40,831 nt of DNA from a virus, in IMG/VR virus record IMGVR_UViG_3300031772_000089, positions 1 through 40,831 of that record; one strand, written 5' to 3'. A program made the translations under genes and the position numbers. The notes beneath the pieces are model-generated. The model made no database searches. It saw only the letters and a list, made by a program, of their open reading frames with translations, and was not told the DNA's origin. Below are positions 278-37,286 of this stretch, piece after piece; position 1 is the first letter of the stretch; each line of letters starts with the position of its first letter.

Positions 278-438
278 TTTTTCTCCTTCCTATTCCAACT
301 ATGTTTTTTAGTGAATATATTTTCTTCTTTCTCTTTTTCTGTCATTATTTGCTTATATTCGGCGTCTCTATTTTTAGACTCTAGCTTTGTTACTCTGTCT
401 TTTAGCAGTTTAATTTCTTCTAATATGTTTTCGTTCAT
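274..438 (-). CDS. small charged helical protein, 54 aa
   Basis: Starts at ATG 438 with CTAGGAGAATAA just upstream, inside the end of the HNH gene; its stop overlaps the next start (ATGA). Sequence begins MNENILEEIKLLKDRVTKLE, a short predicted coiled coil, then a very charged tail (EKEKEEN, NRKEKK). Three genes in a row (HNH, this, the 44-aa gene) are linked by overlap, so they are probably translated together. Function unknown. Confidence 0.7.
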   Translation of the reverse strand: MNENILEEIKLLKDRVTKLESKNRDAEYKQIMTEKEKEENIFTKKHSWNRKEKK

Positions 439-735
439 TTATTCTCCTAGTTCATTTAGTATTTTTAGGTAATCTGGACGCCTATGAATTTCAAACCAAA
501 ATATAGTGCTTACTGGGTCCTTATGGAATATAAAGTGGCATTTAGAACATAAGCATATAAGGTTCTTTTCGTCGAATCTTAGTAAGGATTTCTTATAATA
601 TTTGCTTACAATATGGTGGACTTGTGTAGACGGTTCTTTTTCACAGTATTCGCAATTAGGTTTCTGTAATCGTAACCTTGTGCTAAGTTCTTTCCACTTG
701 TTTCTGTTTTTTAGGGCTTTACTTTGTTTTTTCAT
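439..735 (-). CDS. free-standing HNH endonuclease, 98 aa
   Basis: Compact HNH protein. A zinc-binding pair CEYC (about residues 28-31) and CSKC (about 63-66) bracket the catalytic VHHIV (H41/H42), followed by the DEKNLICLCSKCHFIFH segment with the helical asparagine and final histidine. This is the usual ββα-metal nuclease core with almost nothing added, like small phage HNH enzymes that nick DNA during homing or assist packaging. Its start overlaps the end of the upstream gene by 17 bases. Here it sits among regulatory genes rather than next to the terminase, so a homing role is more likely than a packaging role; this is inference. Confidence 0.85.
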   Translation of the reverse strand: MKKQSKALKNRNKWKELSTRLRLQKPNCEYCEKEPSTQVHHIVSKYYKKSLLRFDEKNLICLCSKCHFIFHKDPVSTIFWFEIHRRPDYLKILNELGE

Positions 736-1006
736 CTATACCCCTATTATCTAGTATTCCGTCGTTTCCCTCATCTTCCTCAATGGCGTCTAGGGAATGG
801 TTAGTATCAATCTTATCTAGGATCCAGTCGGTTAATTTTGTTACGGGTCTAGTCCATGGCACCTTACCGCCCCACTTAGTTTTAATTCTACCTATTCTGC
901 TTGAGATCGTTTCGTCTGGGTCACCTAGCAAAATTGAATTACCTAATTGATCCAAAGAAATTAAGACGTTCATTATATACCGGCCGGTTAATTTTAATAA
1001 TTTCAT
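719..1006 (-). CDS. small conserved phage protein with GDPDETISSR motif, 95 aa
   Basis: Start ATG at 1006 is preceded by AAGGAGGTAAT, one of the best ribosome sites in the window, which favours it over the internal ATG 11 codons later. The stretch LDQLGNSILLGDPDETISSR, then TKWGG, W and the acidic AIEEDEG end, matches a small protein family seen widely in phages and prophages. As far as I recall it is annotated hypothetical, often near lysis genes. The hydrophobic N-terminal part plus conserved W and acidic residues suggest a membrane-associated or peptide-binding protein, but the function is unknown. Confidence 0.8.
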   Translation of the reverse strand: MKLLKLTGRYIMNVLISLDQLGNSILLGDPDETISSRIGRIKTKWGGKVPWTRPVTKLTDWILDKIDTNHSLDAIEEDEGNDGILDNRGIDEKTK

Positions 1007-1015
1007 ATTACCTCC

Positions 1016-1744
1016 TTAAATCATCTCAGGTAGTCCTCTATAGTTTTTTCTCCTGTTATATTCCATGTAATAAATTCCATTGTATTTATACTTTTTCTTT
1101 ACCTTCTTCTTTTTCTTTTTAGGCTTGAGTTGGTTCCTTTTAAAAACATCAGATGGTTTTTCCTGTCTCCTCATGCAACGAAAAATCCGGGTTAAAATAT
1201 TGTCCAGCGCCTTATAAGTCAGATTGTTTTTTTTACAAATTTCTGCCATACTTAATCCGTTATAGCGATCTAATATTAACTGCCAGTATTTTTCTAAGGT
1301 GTCTTTTCGTAACGCCCTATACTGTTCATAGTCTAAACTCCAATTTTTGAAGAATAATTTTTTCATATTGTCTAGCATTTCTTTTTCGTCATCAGGTGAA
1401 AAATCATAAACAGTAGGTAAAGTTATTCGCTGGTAGTGCTTATAGTCGTCCTTTTGTTCTTCACCGTTTGCGAATACTGTTCTTATGTCTCCTGCAAGGA
1501 TCCAATTATGGCAAGGGTAATAAAAAGAGTTTATGTGGCTAATAAGTTTTCTTCTAATAACAATCCAAGCAAAACTAGTGAATTTAGTTTTTTTATTAGG
1601 TTTAAAACACCTCATGGCTTCGCAGTAGGCAATTCTACCGGTTTGAAGCAAGTCCTGGTAGTAGTCTTTTTTATAATTTAGCCTGCTTAAAACCGCACCA
1701 GTAAGTTGATCGGCTTCCTCTTGGTTGTAAGTTAATTTAGCCAT
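1016..1744 (-). CDS. phage sigma-70 family RNA polymerase sigma factor, 242 aa
   Basis: Residues about 25-75 form sigma region 2: DLLQTGRIAYCEAMRCF, then FKPNKKTKFTSFAWIVIRRKL, which mirrors the F-P-x-G-x-x-F-x-T-x-A-x-x-x-I-R pattern of regions 2.2-2.4. Residues about 160-195 (NGLSMAEICKKNNLTYKALD...) form a region 4 helix-turn-helix for the -35 box. The C-terminal 40 residues are a lysine-rich tail (KPKKKKKKVKKKYKY) likely to bind nucleic acid. It is the first gene of the leftward operon and diverges from the early rightward operon, a logical place for a switch regulator. ATG at 1744 has no Shine-Dalgarno and lies 7 bases from a TATAAT, so the mRNA may be leaderless. Confidence 0.85.
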   Translation of the reverse strand: MAKLTYNQEEADQLTGAVLSRLNYKKDYYQDLLQTGRIAYCEAMRCFKPNKKTKFTSFAWIVIRRKLISHINSFYYPCHNWILAGDIRTVFANGEEQKDDYKHYQRITLPTVYDFSPDDEKEMLDNMKKLFFKNWSLDYEQYRALRKDTLEKYWQLILDRYNGLSMAEICKKNNLTYKALDNILTRIFRCMRRQEKPSDVFKRNQLKPKKKKKKVKKKYKYNGIYYMEYNRRKNYRGLPEMI

Positions 1745-1751
1745 TGGTTAT

Positions 1752-1757
1752 ATTATA
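1752..1757 (-). promoter_or_regulatory. candidate -10 box for sigma gene (possible leaderless mRNA)
   Basis: A perfect TATAAT on the minus strand, preceded by GTTG, ends only 7 bases before the ATG at 1744. Transcription starting 6-8 bases downstream of the -10 would begin at or next to the start codon. The -35 region is poor (TTTTTA-like). Confidence 0.45.
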
Positions 1758-1793
1758 CAACGTTTTTGGTGAATAAAAACATTCATTTATTTC

Positions 1794-1821
1794 TTGAATT
1801 AATTAAATATTAGCATATACT
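1794..1821 (+). promoter_or_regulatory. promoter of rightward early operon
   Basis: TTGAAT (1794-1799), 16-base spacer, TATACT (1816-1821), followed by the AAGGAG site and ATG of the 97-aa gene. Good host sigma-70 type promoter. Confidence 0.7.
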
Positions 1822-1842
1822 AAACAAAACTAAAAGGAGAAT

Positions 1843-2136
1843 ATGAGTAAACCAACACCACTACAGGCTACGTTAGTTATGTATTGTGGGCAGATCTTAT
1901 ACGACTTTCACATGGTAGAACACCCGCCTAAAATACTACAAAAGAAATTATGGTTATATAGGCTATTATGGCGTTTTAGAAAGCTTATATTACCTAAAGA
2001 AAATATTGAGCCTATTCTTAGACGTATGTTTGAAGACATGGGTGTAAGTATTTTGTATATACACCAACTTGTTAGCTTATATGGCGATCTTTATGACGGT
2101 AAAATACCAAGAATAATAAGTGTGGATCCGCACTAA
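1843..2136 (+). CDS. hypothetical early protein, 97 aa
   Basis: First gene of the rightward operon, with AAGGAG placed 3 bases before the ATG. The protein is basic and rich in aromatic residues in its first half (LWLYRLLWRFRKLILPKEN) and ends acidic. No signal peptide, membrane span or known domain is evident. As the most promoter-proximal gene of an early-type operon it could be a host-takeover or regulatory factor, but this is position-based inference only. It is followed by about 700 bases without a convincing protein gene. Confidence 0.75.
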   Translation: MSKPTPLQATLVMYCGQILYDFHMVEHPPKILQKKLWLYRLLWRFRKLILPKENIEPILRRMFEDMGVSILYIHQLVSLYGDLYDGKIPRIISVDPH

Positions 2137-2150
2137 TATTGTTAATAATT

Positions 2151-2178
2151 TTGGATCCCTTCAATTATTTAATATATT
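2151..2178 (+). promoter_or_regulatory. candidate promoter of structured RNA
   Basis: TTGGAT (2151-2156), 16-base spacer, TATATT (2173-2178). It sits about 30 bases before the first stem of the structured region. No ribosome site or convincing reading frame follows. Confidence 0.45.
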
Positions 2179-2184
2179 ATTTGT

Positions 2185-2560
2185 TGTATTATTAAAAGTG
2201 TGGACCAGTGTTTATAACCGGTAAGGTTAAGTTGTTGAAACACCACATCCCCCTAGTAGAAACCTTAGGCTTGTATAAGGCTCCTATTTAGAAGGATGTA
2301 GTGTTGTGTCTAAAACCGTATAAGGTTTAAGAGTCGATGACACCACTGAGCATATTCTGGTCTATTAAGCTCATATCCGATGCCTGGCTTAGCGGGTTAC
2401 GGTTAGCGTTCAACCCAATTACGGATATTCCCCGACTACTAACGGTCCCGGGCGTAAGTATTCTACCCGGTCGATCACTGTGCTTTTTAAACTGTTCCGG
2501 TTGTCCATGTTTCAGGCTACCCGGTCTAACAGCAGAACGTCTCAAGCCTTTTCGTTCTTT
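2185..2560 (+). ncRNA. candidate large structured noncoding RNA
   Basis: The region is visibly less A/T-rich than its flanks and is packed with complementary segments: GTGTTT 2208-2213 with AAACAC 2238-2243, enclosing TAACC/GGTTA; ACATCC 2245-2250 with GGATGT 2294-2299, enclosing CCTTA/TAAGG; AAACC/GGTTT 2313-2328; TGAGC/GCTCA 2347-2373; ATATCCG 2373-2379 with CGGATAT 2422-2428, enclosing GGGTT/AACCC; CCGGG/CCCGG 2448-2470; CTGTTCCGG 2492-2500 with CCGG...AACAG 2521-2532; AGAACG/CGTTCT 2534-2558 followed by a T-rich run. A promoter-like sequence lies upstream. ORFs on both strands lack ribosome sites and look random. Strand is assigned from promoter and 3' hairpin and is not certain. It is not a tRNA, and I could not find a group I intron core. 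Large phage RNAs such as GOLLD or ROOL are a conceptual comparison only. Confidence 0.5.
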
Positions 2561-2683
2561 AATATTCATACTTAGATCATACAAGAAAACTTTTTTTATA
2601 CCTCTTAAATAATATTTTTTTGTTACCAAAAATAGATGCAGGTAAATAGAATTATTTTAGTGAAAGAAATAGTAAGATTTATG

Positions 2684-2712
2684 TTGTCTAAAGTTTTATT
2701 ATTATGTATAAT
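2684..2712 (+). promoter_or_regulatory. strong promoter ahead of leader RNA
   Basis: TTGTCT (2684-2689), 17-base spacer, perfect TATAAT (2707-2712). The expected start, about 2719, coincides with the first base of the 5' stem. The 14 bases TGTATAATGGTTGT recur exactly on the minus strand at 30436-30449. Confidence 0.75.
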
Positions 2713-2717
2713 GGTTG

Positions 2718-2811
2718 TGAAGATCATGCAGGACAAAAAACAACTTGAACCAGTAGCAGGAGCATCGTTAGCACACCTACCGCATGATCTTCAACTCCTG
2801 TCTACTGGTTC
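2718..2811 (+). promoter_or_regulatory. leader RNA with two interlocked long stems (pseudoknot or switch)
   Basis: TGAAGATCATGC (2718-2729) is perfectly complementary to GCATGATCTTCA (2782-2793). GAACCAGTAGCAGGAG (2747-2762) pairs with CTCCTGTCTACTGGTTC (2795-2811) with one bulged T. The order is A-B-A'-B', so the two stems cannot nest: they must form either a pseudoknot with loops of about 17, 19 and 1 bases, or two mutually exclusive hairpins. The element begins at the predicted transcription start and ends 8 bases before the AAGGAG that serves the next gene. That layout suggests control of translation or RNA stability. No known riboswitch class is recognised. Confidence 0.65.
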
Positions 2812-2831
2812 TTCTTATAAGGAGAATGGTT

Positions 2832-3386
2832 ATGTCTAATAGTTATTATGAAGCAATTGTTTCGGACGTAAAAGGTTGTAAGCTAAATAAAAAAGTGCAA
2901 AAATTATTTAAAGGCAAAACACTAAGCGAAGACGGAAAAACATTAAAGGTAGTTGGATGTTATGAGTATTCAGGTCCCTTTAGTCTTTTAGTTTTTGACG
3001 GAATAGAGCAATATAAAGAATTAGCAAAAATTAAAGACGGACTACTTTGGAGTTTTAAAGACGAAGGAGAACTAACAAAAGTAGAAATCTCTATTAATAA
3101 GAAGTGGCATACAGTTGCTTTATTTAATGAGAACCTACAATTTCTAGACATTATTTATTATGATCTAAAACATAGTTTAGAAAGAAAAGAAACAGTTGAT
3201 CTAATGGCACTACTTGAAAACATAAGAGGAATTATTGCCGACAGAAAACATGAAGACACCTATGGGTTAACAGAAATTGATCTGTTGAATATAAAGAAAG
3301 CGGATCTACTAAACCAAGTAGAAAGTATAAAACAAGAAATAAAAGCAAAGAAACATAAAGATGCCGTTGAACCAGAATTATTCTAA
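2832..3386 (+). CDS. hypothetical early protein, 184 aa
   Basis: I choose ATG 2832 because AAGGAG lies 7 bases upstream; an in-frame ATG at 2784 would sit inside the leader stem and has no ribosome site. The first 120 residues look like a mixed alpha/beta fold (LKVVGCYEYSGPFSLLVFDG, then WHTVALF and LDIIYYDL). The last 50 are a charged helix (DLLNIKKADLLNQVESIKQE) likely to be coiled coil. No known domain is recognised. Its translation is probably governed by the interlocked leader immediately upstream. It precedes the methyltransferase gene by 8 bases and should be co-transcribed. Confidence 0.8.
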   Translation: MSNSYYEAIVSDVKGCKLNKKVQKLFKGKTLSEDGKTLKVVGCYEYSGPFSLLVFDGIEQYKELAKIKDGLLWSFKDEGELTKVEISINKKWHTVALFNENLQFLDIIYYDLKHSLERKETVDLMALLENIRGIIADRKHEDTYGLTEIDLLNIKKADLLNQVESIKQEIKAKKHKDAVEPELF

Positions 3387-3394
3387 GGAGCGTT

Positions 3395-4381
3395 ATGGGC
3401 GAACAAAATTCACTAGTTATATTTACTAAGGCTTCTCAAATGTTAGCGGAGGCAGTTACAGTACAAAAGGCTAAAGAGCTAAAGGACCTTGCATTAACCG
3501 CTGCTGACTGGGCAAAAAGGAAGGGCATGGGTCAACAAGCTATTGCTTATGCTCAGTCTTATGCTTTACAGGCAGAACGCAGAATGGGCGAAATGCTTAA
3601 GACAACAGAAAGAAATAAGGGCGCAAAAGGTATAGGTAGGAGTGCGGTCATGTCCAGTGACCGCACTCCTACCCTTAAAGACATAGGTATTACAAAGAAC
3701 GAATCGGCAAGGGCGCAAAAGGTAGCAGATATTAACGAAGATATATTTTCTGAAATTATTAGCGGAGAAAAACCAATAACAAAAGCACTAGGAGAACTAA
3801 AACTAGCAGAACGCAGAACCGACATTAAACGACAAAAATCCGACATAGCATCCGGTAAAACAAAACTACCAGAAGGTAAATACGAAATTATTGTAATAGA
3901 TCCTCCTTGGCGTTATAGCGAAAAAGAAGATGCTGGTTACGACTCTAATAGTTTTCGTGGCACAACACCTTACCCTACCATGTCTATAGACGAAATTAAG
4001 AAGCTTAAACTACCTGCCTCTAACGACTGTATAGTATGGCTATGGACTACTCAGAAGCATTTAAAGTATGCATTCGGTATATTAGAGTCTTGGGGTTTTG
4101 AGGATAAGGCTATACTAACGTGGTGTAAAAATAAGATGGGTATAGGTAAGTGGCTTAGGTCTAAATCTGAGTTTTGCATTATGGCAGTTAAAGGTAAACC
4201 TAAAATTAACCTTACAAACCAGACTACCGTTCTTAATGCAGACGCAAGAGAACATAGTCGTAAGCCAGATGAGTTTTATAGCATGGTAGACGAACTTTGT
4301 ATAGGCAGAAAGTTAGACTATTTTAGCAGAGAAAGTAGAAAGGGTTGGGACAGTCATGGCGTTGAAGCTAGTAAATTCTAA
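3395..4381 (+). CDS. MT-A70 family DNA N6-adenine methyltransferase with N-terminal ParB/HTH-like region, 328 aa
   Basis: The C-terminal half (about 160-320) carries the MT-A70 signature DPPWRY (about 171-176), then WLWTTQKHL, ILTWCKNKMGIGKWLRS and EHSRKPDEFYSMVDEL. These are the catalytic DPPW and the substrate/SAM pocket of enzymes that methylate adenine at N6. The N-terminal half (AERRMGEML, then TPTLKDIGITKNESARAQK) is the helical DNA-binding fusion common in phage members. Likely roles are protection from host restriction or marking phage DNA for regulation. AAGGAG precedes the ATG. The gene contains a perfect 16-bp inverted repeat at 3635-3673. A nuclease-like gene follows directly. Confidence 0.9.
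   Translation: MGEQNSLVIFTKASQMLAEAVTVQKAKELKDLALTAADWAKRKGMGQQAIAYAQSYALQAERRMGEMLKTTERNKGAKGIGRSAVMSSDRTPTLKDIGITKNESARAQKVADINEDIFSEIISGEKPITKALGELKLAERRTDIKRQKSDIASGKTKLPEGKYEIIVIDPPWRYSEKEDAGYDSNSFRGTTPYPTMSIDEIKKLKLPASNDCIVWLWTTQKHLKYAFGILESWGFEDKAILTWCKNKMGIGKWLRSKSEFCIMAVKGKPKINLTNQTTVLNADAREHSRKPDEFYSMVDELCIGRKLDYFSRESRKGWDSHGVEASKF
3635..3673 (+). repeat. perfect 16-bp inverted repeat inside methyltransferase gene
   Basis: GGTAGGAGTGCGGTCA (3635-3650) and its exact complement (3658-3673) flank a 7-base loop. G/C-rich compared with its surroundings. It encodes the linker between the N-terminal region and the catalytic domain, and no T-run follows. Confidence 0.85.
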
Positions 4382-4394
4382 AAGGAGTAATAAT

Positions 4395-5063
4395 ATGTTG
4401 ACAAGCGATATAAGAAAAATGATGGAAGAATGTAAACCGGTATATAAGTTTGATGAATGTAATAAGGGTAATGAACCTTATAAAGAGAAGGCGAATACTT
4501 TAATAAAGGAGTTTTTTGGAGCAGAAGAAATTACTCCAGCAAATAACGCACAAGCAGACTATAATGGTACAGACTTCGTTATTACTAACTCTAAAGGGTT
4601 ACGACAAACTATAGACGTTAAATATATGAACACGCCTCTTTATGAGGAAAACAAAATAATTATTGAAGTAGACCATATTAACATAGACGGAACATTTAGG
4701 CGTTTAGGATGGTCGTTTCAACAAGACAAGAATACCGACTGGATTGTTTATTATTTTAGGAAGGCAAATAAAATTAGAGTTATACCGTTTTTGCTATTAA
4801 GAAAAATATGTATTATTAAAAAAGACTTATGGATTACAAAATACACTACGGGAGGAGCAAGAAATCCAGGTTATACTACTAGATGTATTTTTTTGCCAGT
4901 CAGTGAATATATAGATGCAGAAAAAGAAATATTAATTGTCGAACCGGTTGTGCAAACATGTGCTAAACCGGTTTCTGTTAAGGCAAATTTACCCGAACAG
5001 AAATATGAACCAAAAGCAGAAAAAATTACATGGGATGATACTATTTATGGAGTAATAACATGA
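4395..5063 (+). CDS. predicted PD-(D/E)XK-fold nuclease, 222 aa
   Basis: ATG 4395 has AAAGGAG 8 bases upstream; the longer in-frame start overlaps the methyltransferase and lacks a site. Around residues 35-75 the pattern E...YNGTDFVI...QTIDVKYM fits the core of PD-(D/E)XK nucleases (acidic D in GTDF, then D-x-K in DVK), followed by a hydrophobic strand TDWIVYYF typical of the fold. Candidates are a Holliday-junction or structure-specific nuclease, or a restriction-like partner of the methyltransferase. The C-terminal 60 residues look less ordered. It overlaps the next gene by ATGA. The family assignment is inferred from motif spacing only. Confidence 0.6.
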   Translation: MLTSDIRKMMEECKPVYKFDECNKGNEPYKEKANTLIKEFFGAEEITPANNAQADYNGTDFVITNSKGLRQTIDVKYMNTPLYEENKIIIEVDHINIDGTFRRLGWSFQQDKNTDWIVYYFRKANKIRVIPFLLLRKICIIKKDLWITKYTTGGARNPGYTTRCIFLPVSEYIDAEKEILIVEPVVQTCAKPVSVKANLPEQKYEPKAEKITWDDTIYGVIT

Positions 5064-33007: not shown

Positions 33008-34489
33008 TTATAAATTGTTAGGTTCCTCATTTTCTTCAACACCTTCTGCACCTCTAGGATCTCTGTCTCTTTCTGAACGATCTCTTCTATCCGGTTCTCT
33101 TCCATCTACGGCTTCTACAGAACTGTCCGGAGGTGTCAAGTCTTCGCTTCTAATAGTCTCTTTAGCAGGAACATAAGGCAAATTACCCCAGTCTACATCC
33201 TGCAATCCTCTATTATGTCTTACTTCGTTAATTGTAATTACACCATTTCTTAAATCGTTGTCTTCCTGTTTAACATCTAGTGCTTCGTCGTTAGGTACAC
33301 ATTCGTCAAACTGGAAAAATAGATTGTCGTCATAAAGATTTATAAGTTTACCATTAAGTCTTTCCTCAATTCTCTTTAATTTAGGCTTAATAGTAAAACG
33401 CATGTAATTACTAATAGCCACATTAGCAGTAGCCCTATTAGCGTTTTCTGTGGTTATAAGATCTTCAGGAACTCCAAAGGCATTACAAATAACACTTCTT
33501 AGCCATTTCCTACCTTCTGCAAAATCTAGATCCTTAGGTGGTAAACTAATAGGTACAAACTCAAAATCTTGATCCATTACTTTAGTTTTACCTGCACGCT
33601 TCCAATTTCTTAAAGTCTTGTCCCAACTCTTCTGAACGTCTTCCATTGTATTTTTGTCAAGTCTTCCACCGGTATATTTTACAACAGCACTAGGAATTGC
33701 GTTATTTTCGGTTAAAGCTCTTAGAAAGTCATTAATTGAATTATAAAGGTAAACTTCGTCTAAAGCATACTCTAGATCGCCAATTCCGTATAAACCGGTA
33801 ATTAGGGCATTATTCCACACCCGCCAAAATAAACCAGGAGAAGTGTTCTTAAAGTGAATAATTTCTTCTTTAGGGTATTCTTTCTTGTAAATACCATTAA
33901 AAGTTCTATAACCCTTAATGTGCATGGTGTCGTCTAAGGTAACACTAGTATACTCAGCAGGCATAACTACTATTTTTTCAGGCAAACCATTCTTACCTTT
34001 AACTATTTGCCAGAACGCATTTCCAATAAGTCCTAAATAGCCAGCGGTTAGTTCCATTAAGTCATAATAGTCCAAGTCGTCATTCACATTATTTAGCACT
34101 TCATAAACCGGATGCTCAACAATTTCTACAATGTTATGAGCTTGCTTGACAATTAAACTTTTACTTTCTTTCTTAATTCTTCCTACTTCAATATGATTAA
34201 GCTCTTTATGAGGAAATACAATCTTTTCGTTCTTAGAATGAGTTAATGCAAACAATCTTAAAGGCGTAGAAGCAATACTAGACGAATTCTTACTATTACA
34301 AACACCTACAAAACCTTTATTAAGTTTTATAAGTTCTACCGGATTGTTATTTATGTGTTTAGGAGCAATTACCAAGGTGTCGATCATTCCAAAAGACGCT
34401 GGTACTGATTTTGTTTCTACATTGGCTAATTGCTTAACCAGTTCGCTCTTAGAAGGTTTTATATTTTTGGATCCTACTTGTCTGCTCAT
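33008..34489 (-). CDS. portal protein, 493 aa
   Basis: Order TerL-portal-protease-capsid identifies it, and the sequence fits the HK97/SPP1 portal type: GFVGVCNSKNSSSIASTPLR, ELTAGYLGLIGNAFWQIVKG, YKKEYPKEEIIHFKNTSPG, and the helix VYLYNSINDFLRALTENNAI with following LRSVICNAFGVPEDLITTEN. FGVP-E-L is a recurrent portal motif. The C-terminus is charged and disordered (EPDRRDRSERDRDPRGAEG). GAGGT precedes the ATG. It forms the dodecameric DNA gate at one capsid vertex and docks the terminase. Confidence 0.9.
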   Translation of the reverse strand: MSRQVGSKNIKPSKSELVKQLANVETKSVPASFGMIDTLVIAPKHINNNPVELIKLNKGFVGVCNSKNSSSIASTPLRLFALTHSKNEKIVFPHKELNHIEVGRIKKESKSLIVKQAHNIVEIVEHPVYEVLNNVNDDLDYYDLMELTAGYLGLIGNAFWQIVKGKNGLPEKIVVMPAEYTSVTLDDTMHIKGYRTFNGIYKKEYPKEEIIHFKNTSPGLFWRVWNNALITGLYGIGDLEYALDEVYLYNSINDFLRALTENNAIPSAVVKYTGGRLDKNTMEDVQKSWDKTLRNWKRAGKTKVMDQDFEFVPISLPPKDLDFAEGRKWLRSVICNAFGVPEDLITTENANRATANVAISNYMRFTIKPKLKRIEERLNGKLINLYDDNLFFQFDECVPNDEALDVKQEDNDLRNGVITINEVRHNRGLQDVDWGNLPYVPAKETIRSEDLTPPDSSVEAVDGREPDRRDRSERDRDPRGAEGVEENEEPNNL

Positions 34490-34512
34490 ATTAAATTACC
34501 TCATGCCTTATA

Positions 34513-36711
34513 TTAAAAGTTCTCTGTCTGACTACATTCTGCCCACATGTCTTCCTTGTTAATGTCCTCTTCGTCACGTTTATAAAGATCTTCCTCTTCG
34601 TCTAAAAATTTAGGGTAAATATAATTTCCTTGAGTGTCTTGAACTTCATTCACTACATACCTTAAAGCATCTAAGCAATCGTCTCCTTTCTTTACCGGTT
34701 TCTCAGAATTTCCTTTGTAGACATAATTTTCAAATTCACGTATTAAAGTGTCACATGAAGGATCTATAAGCAAACTACCATTACCTAAACGATCTCTAAT
34801 TCTGTCAATACCCACGTTTACGTCATGATTAGCCTTAAATGCCTGAATTCCTATATTACTCAATTCATTAGCCAATATAGGTGCAGAAGGATCGTATAAG
34901 ATTTGCAGGTTTCTATACTGTTCATTCATTTTAACTACGGTTTTCTTAATTTGAGCTATTAATAAGTCACTCTTGGCGGTTTCTTCTATTACGCTAATAA
35001 TATTTTTAGTAACCCCACATAATATAAAAGCTGCTAAATGTGTTTGTCCCCAGTCAATACTTAAATAATACTCTTCATACCCGCTCTTAGGTAATATTCT
35101 AACGTGTTGTTCCCTTGAGAAATTCTTAAATACCTGTCCTTCTATTGCTACCCATTCGCCATCTACCATTCTTTTTCGCCTGTCAGCATCCATATATTTA
35201 AAAGAGTCGAAGAAAGATTCAGGTAAATAGAAATTGTCATAAGAACTACTAGTAATTACCTTATGGTCCTTGTCCTTGTCTATAAAAAATTGCTTATATA
35301 ACCACTGGTCCTTATTAGGTGGTCCCGGGTTAGTAGCCAAATAAACCTGCATACTACCTTTCTTACTTCTCAAACCATAAGCCATTTCCTCATATTCTTC
35401 CAAAGTAAACTCAATAGCCTCATCTAAGCATAAACACCCAATATTCATACTTCTAACGCTCATTCCTCTGTCTAACCCTCTATACTGCAATATTCCTCCA
35501 CCTTTAATTTTTATAATACCTTCCGACTTATTATGGAATTCTATTGCCTCTGGCGGTATTATTTCAAAAAGTGACTCTAAGGTAGACGCTTTTAGATCTG
35601 TTAGGGTTTTTCTAGCAAGCAGTACTTTATTACCCGGCCTACTAGCTTCTCTGAAGGCGGCATAAGCTAAAACCCGGCTTTTACCGCTGTTATGATGAAT
35701 TAGCCCATTAGCAATATAATTATGGTATTTAGGAACTCCAATGTCATAAATCTTATTGCAGCGGTTTCGGTTAATTTCTTGTATAATAGAAGCGGTTAAA
35801 TAAGGAGAAAAACATGAATGAGAAAAATCGTGGACTTGGTAAGGGTTGTTGTTTTCGTGGTAAGCCGTCCAGTAATCGTAAATATCCTTGGCATTCTCAT
35901 AAAGAGGAGTGTTTGAAGATGTATGAGGACGGTATGACAATAAAGCAAATTCTGTCTCATTATGGTTTTGTTTGTAATAAGAACCTTGGTGAACAGCTTC
36001 GTCGTTTCTTAAAGAAGAATAATATGGTTGTTGATTTTCGTGGACTTCAGGGTAAAAATAATCCTTCTTGGAAAGGTGGCGTTTATATTGATCCTGCCGG
36101 TTATAGACTAATTCGGGTTCAAAATCATCCATCAAGAAATTCTGCTGGTTATATTCGTGAACATCGTTTAATAATGGAAAAACGCCTTGGACGCTATTTA
36201 ACTCAGAAAGAGGTTGTTCATCATATAAATGGCAACACTCAGGACAACCGCATTGAGAATCTTGAGCTTTATGAATCCAACGGTAAACATCTTGCGAACG
36301 AACTTGCTGGTAAATGTCCAAATTGGAGTATTGAGGGTAAGAAGAAAATCCTAAAAAGGAATCGCCTACAAAACAATCTTTCGCCAACTTCCAACCCTTA
36401 GTAGTAAGAAATAAATGATTCTTAGCAACTTTAACGATTTTACCGTCGCTAGTCTTTATTTCTAATATTTCTTCATATGACTTTAAATAAGGTATTTCTG
36501 CCTGTACCCACTCAAAATCGTTACCATTAAAGCTTAATACTATTGGCGCAGTATTATTTTTAACAAGCTCTTCTATTGCTACTTCTCCGTCTTTAGTTAG
36601 TAGCTTGGTTTCTCCTACAATACAACCACGCCCACCTGAGTAAAGTATGTATTTTTCCTTAGAATCTAAGAATTCGTACTGTTTTGGTAGTAATTTAACG
36701 TTTATTTGCAT
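34513..36711 (-). CDS. terL: terminase large subunit carrying an intein in Walker A, 732 aa precursor
   Basis: The spliced protein is 420 aa: residues 1-29 end GGRG and continue after the intein with SGKSRVLAY, rebuilding a Walker A loop (GGRGSGKS). Walker B is CLCLDEAIEF and a coupling motif follows (YLATNPGPPN). The RNase-H-like nuclease shows SIDWGQTH, YDPSAP and DDCLDAL. It packages DNA by ATP-driven translocation and cuts genome ends. The intein lies exactly in the P-loop, so packaging depends on splicing. The ribosome site is weak (TAGGGC). Next upstream is a 575-base noncoding region and a candidate small terminase gene. Confidence 0.93.
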   Translation of the reverse strand: MQINVKLLPKQYEFLDSKEKYILYSGGRGCIVGETKLLTKDGEVAIEELVKNNTAPIVLSFNGNDFEWVQAEIPYLKSYEEILEIKTSDGKIVKVAKNHLFLTTKGWKLAKDCFVGDSFLGFSSYPQYSNLDIYQQVRSQDVYRWIHKAQDSQCGCPECCHLYDEQPLSELNSVQGVFPLLNDVHEYNQQNFLMDDFEPELVYNRQDQYKRHLSKKDYFYPEVHENQQPYYSSLRNDEAVHQGSYYKQNHNETEFALLSYRPHTSSNTPLYENAKDIYDYWTAYHENNNPYQVHDFSHSCFSPYLTASIIQEINRNRCNKIYDIGVPKYHNYIANGLIHHNSGKSRVLAYAAFREASRPGNKVLLARKTLTDLKASTLESLFEIIPPEAIEFHNKSEGIIKIKGGGILQYRGLDRGMSVRSMNIGCLCLDEAIEFTLEEYEEMAYGLRSKKGSMQVYLATNPGPPNKDQWLYKQFFIDKDKDHKVITSSSYDNFYLPESFFDSFKYMDADRRKRMVDGEWVAIEGQVFKNFSREQHVRILPKSGYEEYYLSIDWGQTHLAAFILCGVTKNIISVIEETAKSDLLIAQIKKTVVKMNEQYRNLQILYDPSAPILANELSNIGIQAFKANHDVNVGIDRIRDRLGNGSLLIDPSCDTLIREFENYVYKGNSEKPVKKGDDCLDALRYVVNEVQDTQGNYIYPKFLDEEEDLYKRDEEDINKEDMWAECSQTENF
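35782..35807 (+). promoter_or_regulatory. -10 box and ribosome site of antisense HNH gene
   Basis: TATAAT (35782-35787) preceded by CTTG, then AAGGAG (35802-35807) 6 bases before the ATG. No good -35; TTGCAG is 20 bases away. These signals lie inside the intein coding sequence. Confidence 0.6.
35814..36401 (+). CDS. HNH homing endonuclease encoded antisense within the terminase intein, 195 aa
   Basis: A full-length HNH protein: an N-terminal helix-turn-helix-like part (ECLKMYEDGMTIKQILSHYG, about 32-51), then NNPSWKGGVYIDPAGYRLI, then the nuclease core REHRLIMEKRLGRYLTQKEV, VHHINGNTQDNRIENLEL (H136, H137, N145) and H159. This HNH_3-like layout is typical of phage homing enzymes. Codon use differs from its neighbours (frequent CGT and GGT for Arg and Gly rather than AGA), which fits transfer. 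It lies wholly inside the terminase intein but on the opposite strand, with its own AAGGAG and TATAAT. Confidence 0.88.
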   Translation: MNEKNRGLGKGCCFRGKPSSNRKYPWHSHKEECLKMYEDGMTIKQILSHYGFVCNKNLGEQLRRFLKKNNMVVDFRGLQGKNNPSWKGGVYIDPAGYRLIRVQNHPSRNSAGYIREHRLIMEKRLGRYLTQKEVVHHINGNTQDNRIENLELYESNGKHLANELAGKCPNWSIEGKKKILKRNRLQNNLSPTSNP

Positions 36712-37286
36712 GTTATAGCCCTATTAGAATTGTTTAACCGGCGCAGTAGAAATTGGCAAATTAGTGAAAATTAGCAGATTTTTATTTTTTTTAGAATTTT
36801 TTAGCGTATTCATTGGCATATTAGCATTCTGTATTTGGGAATTTAGAATATTAGCATATATTAGGTAATTTTAGAAAATTGTATTATAGCGTGTATTGAA
36901 ACCCCAACCCTAATTATTCACTACTTTTGGACTTCCTCCCAACTAAAGTGACTAGCAATCACTAAAAATGTTCTAAAAATGTTTTTACATGCCGGCTTAC
37001 TCATAACTCATGTCGCTACTTATTTTTAGACCGTGTGTAAATGTTTTCTACTGCGCCAACTAAAATGTTTTTAATTACCCAACTAGCAATTACTAATAGG
37101 CCAACTAATATTCCTTACCACGCCTGTTAGAAATACTAATATATGCTCCTTGTTCTGCTCCTTGTTTATTAGCTATGTCGCATAATAATGCTAATGTAAC
37201 CTAATAATGCTCATATTCCTTAGCAAAACATTAGATTCCCTAAGTGGCGTGCTAGTGGTGGGTCATAAGCCCTATTATTTTGCATG
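36712..37286 (+). other. noncoding region between small and large terminase genes, iteron-like repeats
   Basis: About 575 bases with no supportable gene. A/T-rich and full of short motifs around TTAGCA/GCTAAT. CCAACTA(A/G) occurs at 36939, 37056, 37079 and 37101 in the same orientation, the last three 22-23 bases apart. ACTAGCAAT(T/C)ACTAA occurs twice (36951, 37082). Location between terminase genes suggests a packaging (pac/cos) site or other protein-binding region. Hairpin AGTGGTGGG/CCTACCACT marks its right border. Confidence 0.5.

Follow-up and report, generated by a model that had tools for sequence, protein, structure and literature searches.

The window analysed here is the whole of a 40,831-base tailed-phage record (IMG/VR). 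On its minus strand, an orf of 732 amino acids without internal stops (34513-36711) encodes a PBSX-like terminase large subunit (TerL) with a 312-residue intein inserted after residue 29, and the portal, prohead protease and capsid genes lie downstream. The N-extein (terminase residues 1-29, ending ...YSGGRG) occupies 36625..36711 and the C-extein (SGKSRVLAYAA..., including the stop codon) 34513..35688, both on the minus strand. Once joined, the exteins form the Walker A motif GGRG/SGKS, by which the N-extein was recognized together with the portal gene downstream, and the C-extein matches PF04466, PF03237, PF17289 and TIGR01547; the profile matches of the exteins include PF04466 at 3.7e-15 and the terminase family PHROG 2 at 1.2e-35. 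Searches with the window's terminase found three viral relatives. The joined exteins align only weakly and uninformatively at the junction with the intein-less terminase of AP45, and a pair of other terminase loci, one filled (L266) and one empty (L267), served for the insertion-site comparison in their place. Elsewhere in the window, an MT-A70 family methyltransferase (PF05063, 3e-28) is encoded on the plus strand at 3395-4381.

The intein (35689..36624, minus strand; TerL residues 30-341, read from 36624 to 35689) begins with C1 and ends in HHN, followed by Ser+1, and mapping of the orf and of the intein ends gave the same coordinates, to the base, as the original prediction. That prediction also held that the splicing blocks are intact and that the intein has no nuclease in its own frame, and the profile searches bear it out on both points. 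Blocks A and B are matched by TIGR01445 (intein_Nterm, E = 3.4e-10, TerL residues 30-103), blocks F and G by TIGR01443 (intein_Cterm, E = 2.3e-7, residues 321-342, with the HHN/S junction), and the intein as a whole by PF14890 (1.7e-12); C1, the block-B histidine H70, the block-F aspartate D294 and the terminal asparagine N312 are invariant in intein alignments of 54 and 55 rows. The same searches found no nuclease domain in the intein's frame, and a degenerate in-frame endonuclease in the linker was rejected accordingly. In the AlphaFold model (for which the alignments were run without the row of locus L087), the HINT N-part (residues 1-95, 36340..36624, minus strand) has a pLDDT of about 97-98 over residues 1-90, and the C-terminal HINT part (35689..35802, minus strand; residues 275-312, with blocks F and G) has one of 86-98 over residues 271-313. 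Between them, the linker (residues 96-274, 35803..36339, minus strand) has a pLDDT of about 41-54 and is predicted to be disordered, with nearly no secondary structure. This model comes closest in fold to the mini-inteins of RecA and DnaB (TMt up to 0.89), among them the Mtu RecA intein splicing domain 2imz (Foldseek, TMt 0.89, E = 6e-7). Sequence and predicted fold together suggest that the window intein is capable of protein splicing.

Opposite the linker, and entirely within the intein, the plus strand encodes an HNH homing-endonuclease-like protein of 195 amino acids (35814..36401, ATG start) that has an N-terminal HTH region and an HNH_3 domain. A complete 195-residue HNH frame antisense to the middle of the intein had been predicted, and a comparison of both translated products with protein families proposed as a check; just as the intein matches intein profiles, the HNH protein matches PF13392 (HNH_3, 1.5e-11) and PHROG HNH families (to 4.2e-25), with a weak HTH match (Clr5, 4e-4) at its N-terminus. 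The catalytic core (H136/H137 ... N145 ... N149 ... H159; 36219..36290, plus strand) contains four residues, H137, N145, N149 and H159, that are invariant in a 56-row HNH alignment. The predicted structure has a pLDDT of 87.8, and its best structural match is a weak one to the homing endonuclease I-HmuI (E = 0.14, TMt 0.35). The low pLDDT of the linker, set beside the folding of the HINT parts and of the HNH protein, indicates that the nuclease information lies at the usual place of endonuclease insertion, but on the other strand. The HNH protein may be a DNA-cleaving enzyme whose expression, as originally proposed, would be uncoupled from that of the terminase.

Both of the expression signals predicted ahead of the HNH gene are present on the plus strand: a Shine-Dalgarno sequence AAGGAG (35802..35807) that ends 6 nt upstream of the ATG, and TATAAT (35782..35787), a possible -10 box. 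A TATA-like box, the AAGGAG and the ATGAATGAG start also occur in L089 and L346, the window's two closest relatives. Across the class of similar loci described below, Shine-Dalgarno sequences of at least 5 nt precede 28/60 HNH starts compared with 28/120 control frames, and 9/60 representatives lack one of 4 nt or more. A scan for the promoter consensus was not above chance (7 sites versus 5.4 +/- 2.4 in shuffled sequences) and was dropped as evidence for expression. These features are consistent with transcription of the plus strand and translation of the HNH gene.

The HNH protein and its alignments were used to scan viral and genome contigs, and the loci found, with some regions of phage records added, came to 265. 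An HNH gene antisense inside an orf of 450-2080 amino acids is present at 92 of these, which form 60 clusters at 85% identity; because the searches started from HNH sequences and loci were retained for having a long antisense orf, these counts are not an estimate of prevalence. Alignment showed inteins with the expected ends in 59/60 clusters (the other is cut by a contig end), 47/60 match Pfam Intein_splicing at E<=0.01, and 49/60 match an intein-bearing DnaB model. A broken HNH or intein frame in relatives had been named as grounds for doubting the arrangement; the opposite was found, both frames being intact in all 59 of the intein clusters. Large subunits of terminases from several families predominate among the host proteins, which also include DNA helicases, a Sak4-like AAA protein and an SbcC-like protein, and five loci of the class are in bacterial genome bins. 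Eight isolated phages of Pectobacterium and Dickeya carry the element (Taid, Pappous, Setonix, Amona, Koroua, Sabo, Ymer and Abuela); their terminase, where annotated, bears the label "hypothetical protein", and the HNH gene is without annotation in the records of Taid and Ymer, the two that were opened.

All 60 clusters share a single antisense register (0), in which first codon positions pair with each other, HNH position 3 with intein position 2, and HNH position 2 with intein position 3. This is probably not the easiest register in which to avoid antisense stops, since the easiest would need only synonymous changes of leucine and serine codons. Antisense orfs of at least 450 amino acids in another register were found at only three loci, none of which has the intein C-terminal motif. 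When the antisense-intein label was mapped onto the HNH tree, which is poorly resolved, 15 changes were needed compared with 44.6 in shuffles (0/500 as low), and the distances between inteins are correlated with those between their HNH genes (Mantel r 0.28, 0/2000). The single register, the clustering on the tree and the correlated distances point to one or few origins of the element class. A different history, in which a free-standing HNH homing gene moves alone and has repeatedly invaded inteins that are merely its landing sites, would suit the poor resolution of the tree and the roughly 15 label changes that it still requires, as well as pairs of loci in which the HNH gene is more alike than the N-part of the intein (93% versus 78% in L003 and L112; also Taid and Ymer). 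Repeated invasion is nevertheless unlikely given that every cluster uses one register, that the label is clustered and the distances correlate, and that in the terminase group of locus L131 the whole intein has moved with sharp edges.

The evidence for mobility comes from such relatives, since close alleles of the window's own intein are too few (its close terminase group consists of the three viral relatives) for its mobility to be demonstrated directly. From the terminase group that includes L131 and L266, 80 relatives were fetched, of which 66 have empty alleles (GGNR/SGKT) and seven are filled; in the remainder, a contig end truncates the sequence or the site cannot be read. Between L266 (filled) and L267 (empty), the difference is an intein of exactly 933 nt, with flanks 98.3% and 98.8-99.0% identical. 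The inteins of L266 and L268 are 100% identical in terminases that are 81-90% identical, and those of L131 and of L129, L132 and L139 are 98-100% identical, while the exteins directly outside them are 77-86% identical in most pairs. Empty and filled alleles, together with the contrast in identity between inteins and exteins, are the signatures of an active homing element, and constitute strong sequence evidence that the intein has spread horizontally among these relatives of the window element. In another pair (L012 and L260), the terminase C-parts are 98% identical as proteins and the HNH genes 56% identical, which reads as alternative intein alleles swapped at one site.

The distribution of the element also bears on whether the nuclease has ceased homing and acquired a phage function, such as that of a packaging HNH protein beside the terminase. 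HNH proteins encoded near terminases can take part in packaging (Kala et al. 2014, as cited in PMC10448857), and terminases are the majority of hosts in the class. A packaging role is, however, very improbable for an element that is missing from most relatives of one host terminase (the 66 empty versus seven filled alleles above) and that is found as well in helicases and other ATPases. Likewise, among the 913 phage records that match the Pectobacterium-type terminase, near-identity of the whole gene including the intein is limited to the eight phages; the other 905, taken by identity figure only, are less than 80% identical.

Coding on both strands has left its mark on the overlap. In 15 pairs of HNH genes, differences totalled 1158 at codon position 1, 987 at position 2 and 1769 at position 3, with position 3 exceeding position 2 in 15/15 pairs (p = 6e-5). 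The greatest divergence at position 3 and the least, in total, at position 2 is the pattern of a protein-coding HNH frame, and opposite to that of intein-coding constraint alone. Within the trio of the window, L089 and L346, the differences at positions 1/2/3 are 57/40/86, 52/39/71 and 46/27/67, the first two sets (86/40 and 71/39 at positions 3/2) being those of the window with its nearest relatives. Judged from these counts, the HNH frame is the conserved frame and bears most of the selection. The original prediction that about 590 bases code on both strands therefore stands as to the extent of the overlap (588 nt of orf), but not as to an equal share of constraint, selection being mostly on the HNH frame and the linker being predicted to be disordered.

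The intein frame is still kept open. Intein-frame stops are absent from the window HNH gene, where 10.6 are expected, and synonymous recoding of the gene left the intein frame open in 0/20,000 cases. Triplets forbidden as intein stops number 0 in 10,186 HNH codons of the class and 739 in 14,624 codons of other HNH genes, with normal counts in the other two registers; the class-wide zero is expected because the class was selected for open frames, and it is the improbability per gene that carries weight. Phenylalanine is followed by isoleucine, methionine, threonine, asparagine or lysine in 0/156 cases in class HNH proteins compared with 79/255, and isoleucine ahead of a codon beginning with A is encoded as ATA in 56/56 cases compared with 141/384. 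By these patterns, the constraint of an open intein frame extends into the sequence of the HNH protein. Over long evolutionary distances the linker otherwise drifts, to judge from L003 and L012, whose four-fold degenerate HNH sites are as diverged as those of the exteins (30/44 versus 116/173). At shorter range, the overlap is 96.3% identical between Taid (L087) and Ymer (L348) compared with 88.5% for the C-extein and 88.4% for the non-overlapping N-part of the intein, the latter over 43 nt only, as could result from either dual constraint or local, HNH-centred conversion.

These patterns leave hardly any room for the antisense HNH orf to yield no product, as it would if it were open by chance opposite an ordinary intein linker or were a decayed relic. 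GC-rich DNA does produce long antisense orfs, as the register-2 cases attest, but a chance orf would not be expected to match HNH_3 at 1.5e-11, to be conserved in frame and intact in 60 clusters, to keep invariant catalytic residues, or to encode a product for which AlphaFold predicts a fold where it predicts none for the linker; stop avoidance, the invariant residues, and the codon-position, dipeptide and ATA patterns led to its rejection. The element is no more credible as a group I or II intron that is removed as RNA, carries an antisense endonuclease gene and incidentally resembles an intein. Group I introns of that kind are known (PMC9548176), but no Rfam match at E<=1 was found on either strand of 34400-36900, and the unbroken orf has N- and C-terminal intein blocks, intein profile and fold matches, and a conserved C1 and terminal asparagine.

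The locus is very probably a mobile intein whose homing endonuclease is a separate gene opposite the intein's own middle. Terminase mRNA from the minus strand would be translated straight through the intein, the HINT ends of which would fold and bridge some 180 disordered linker residues (the HNH gene read antisense), excise the intein and join GGRG to SGKS, restoring the P-loop of the terminase. A separate plus-strand transcript would give rise to a free HTH-HNH nuclease, which would cut or nick intein-less terminase alleles, and repair would copy the element in. As a free protein, the nuclease would be expressed and would fold independently of terminase expression and splicing. Splicing, plus-strand transcription, DNA cleavage and the target site are in this scheme deduced from sequence. 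With less assurance, though on balance favoured, the class may be a widespread two-strand mobile lineage that has gone undescribed, in which inteins and HNH genes share DNA in a fixed register, travel together between phage terminases, helicases and other P-loop proteins, make the nuclease independently of the host protein, and are both constrained by the overlap.

Full-text literature searches found no antisense endonuclease in an intein, in keeping with the original statement that none was known; a 2025 preprint (doi 10.1101/2025.01.02.630785), which to go by its citation in PMC11855218 covers actinobacteriophage inteins of "non-canonical architecture", was outside their scope. Among the matches listed, actinophage genes belonging to the HNH family are either annotated as free-standing or located inside methylases, on the same strand where examined, which makes it less likely, though still conceivable, that the preprint describes the antisense arrangement. 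The class thus appears, from its sequences, to be recurrent and apparently mobile in phages, with no earlier description found in the literature searched.

Several known systems resemble parts of it. Antisense endonuclease genes opposite the strand of the host gene occur in nuclear group I introns (PMC9548176), but there splicing is by RNA, and dual coding does not arise because the intron needs no open frame. Fractured genes, in which a free-standing endonuclease gene reportedly separates the two parts of a split intein (Dassa et al. 2009, cited in PMC10448857), likewise have intein and endonuclease as separate genes at one site, but the intein is divided over two genes, whereas here one continuous orf overlaps the nuclease gene. 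Such a split arrangement was ruled out for free-standing HNH relatives, for which no intein blocks were found on the opposite strand within 1.3 kb.

The closest published relative is the ShiLan domain, a "hidden" out-of-frame HNH insert in phage methylases that has no splicing domain (PMC11855218). It shares a phage HNH gene of related type concealed in the second frame of an in-frame insertion, a host frame free of stops, and a patchy, homing-like distribution (PMC11855218). Its HNH gene, however, shares the strand of the host gene but not its frame, and its insert is thought to be retained in the host protein as a loop (PMC11855218), while that of the window is antisense inside a complete intein; the window element has neither the same-strand gene nor the missing splicing domain of a ShiLan-type insert. 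ShiLan-type inserts were also recovered by the present HNH searches, and in Mycobacterium phage Constella (L350) an HNH gene (1851-2468) is annotated on the same strand, in another frame, within a methyltransferase (1351-2778) in ShiLan-like fashion. Same-strand hidden HNH inteins were not found in this HNH family, the C-terminal intein motif being on the HNH strand only in L215. In a Nitrospira MAG (L171), a related HNH orf (3004-3471) is antisense in register 0 to a DNA methyltransferase orf (1523-4489), in a stretch that is in frame, lacks intein ends and has CxxC-type motifs near its borders; it is possibly the antisense counterpart of a ShiLan-type insert.

The element resembles canonical homing inteins in having a HINT domain with blocks A, B, F and G and, between the two halves of that domain, nuclease information where an endonuclease is usually inserted; it also lies at a conserved P-loop, and both empty and filled alleles are found among relatives. 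In canonical inteins, however, the nuclease (LAGLIDADG/DOD or HNH) is an in-frame domain, whereas here it is a separate gene of the opposite strand and the linker is predicted to be disordered. Inteins are defined and annotated by the nucleases of their own frames, and those of the antisense kind would pass as nuclease-less inteins or as hypothetical proteins, a mislabelling that the Pectobacterium and Dickeya phages exemplify. A free, separately expressed nuclease would alter the regulation and decay of intein homing. Long, fully embedded antisense coding is rare in nature. This class supplies dozens of cases as well as empty alleles, and leaves a clear statistical mark on the proteins, which makes the evolution of overlapping genes directly testable. 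The apparent tolerance of the HINT ends for a predicted disordered linker of this length is relevant to intein engineering. Both intein architectures seem to occur within one gene in L007, where a terminase (antisense orf 284-3832) has an antisense-HNH intein at the P-loop plus a second insert near its C-terminus (CYDPETEVL...MVCGN/C) that resembles a conventional in-frame intein.
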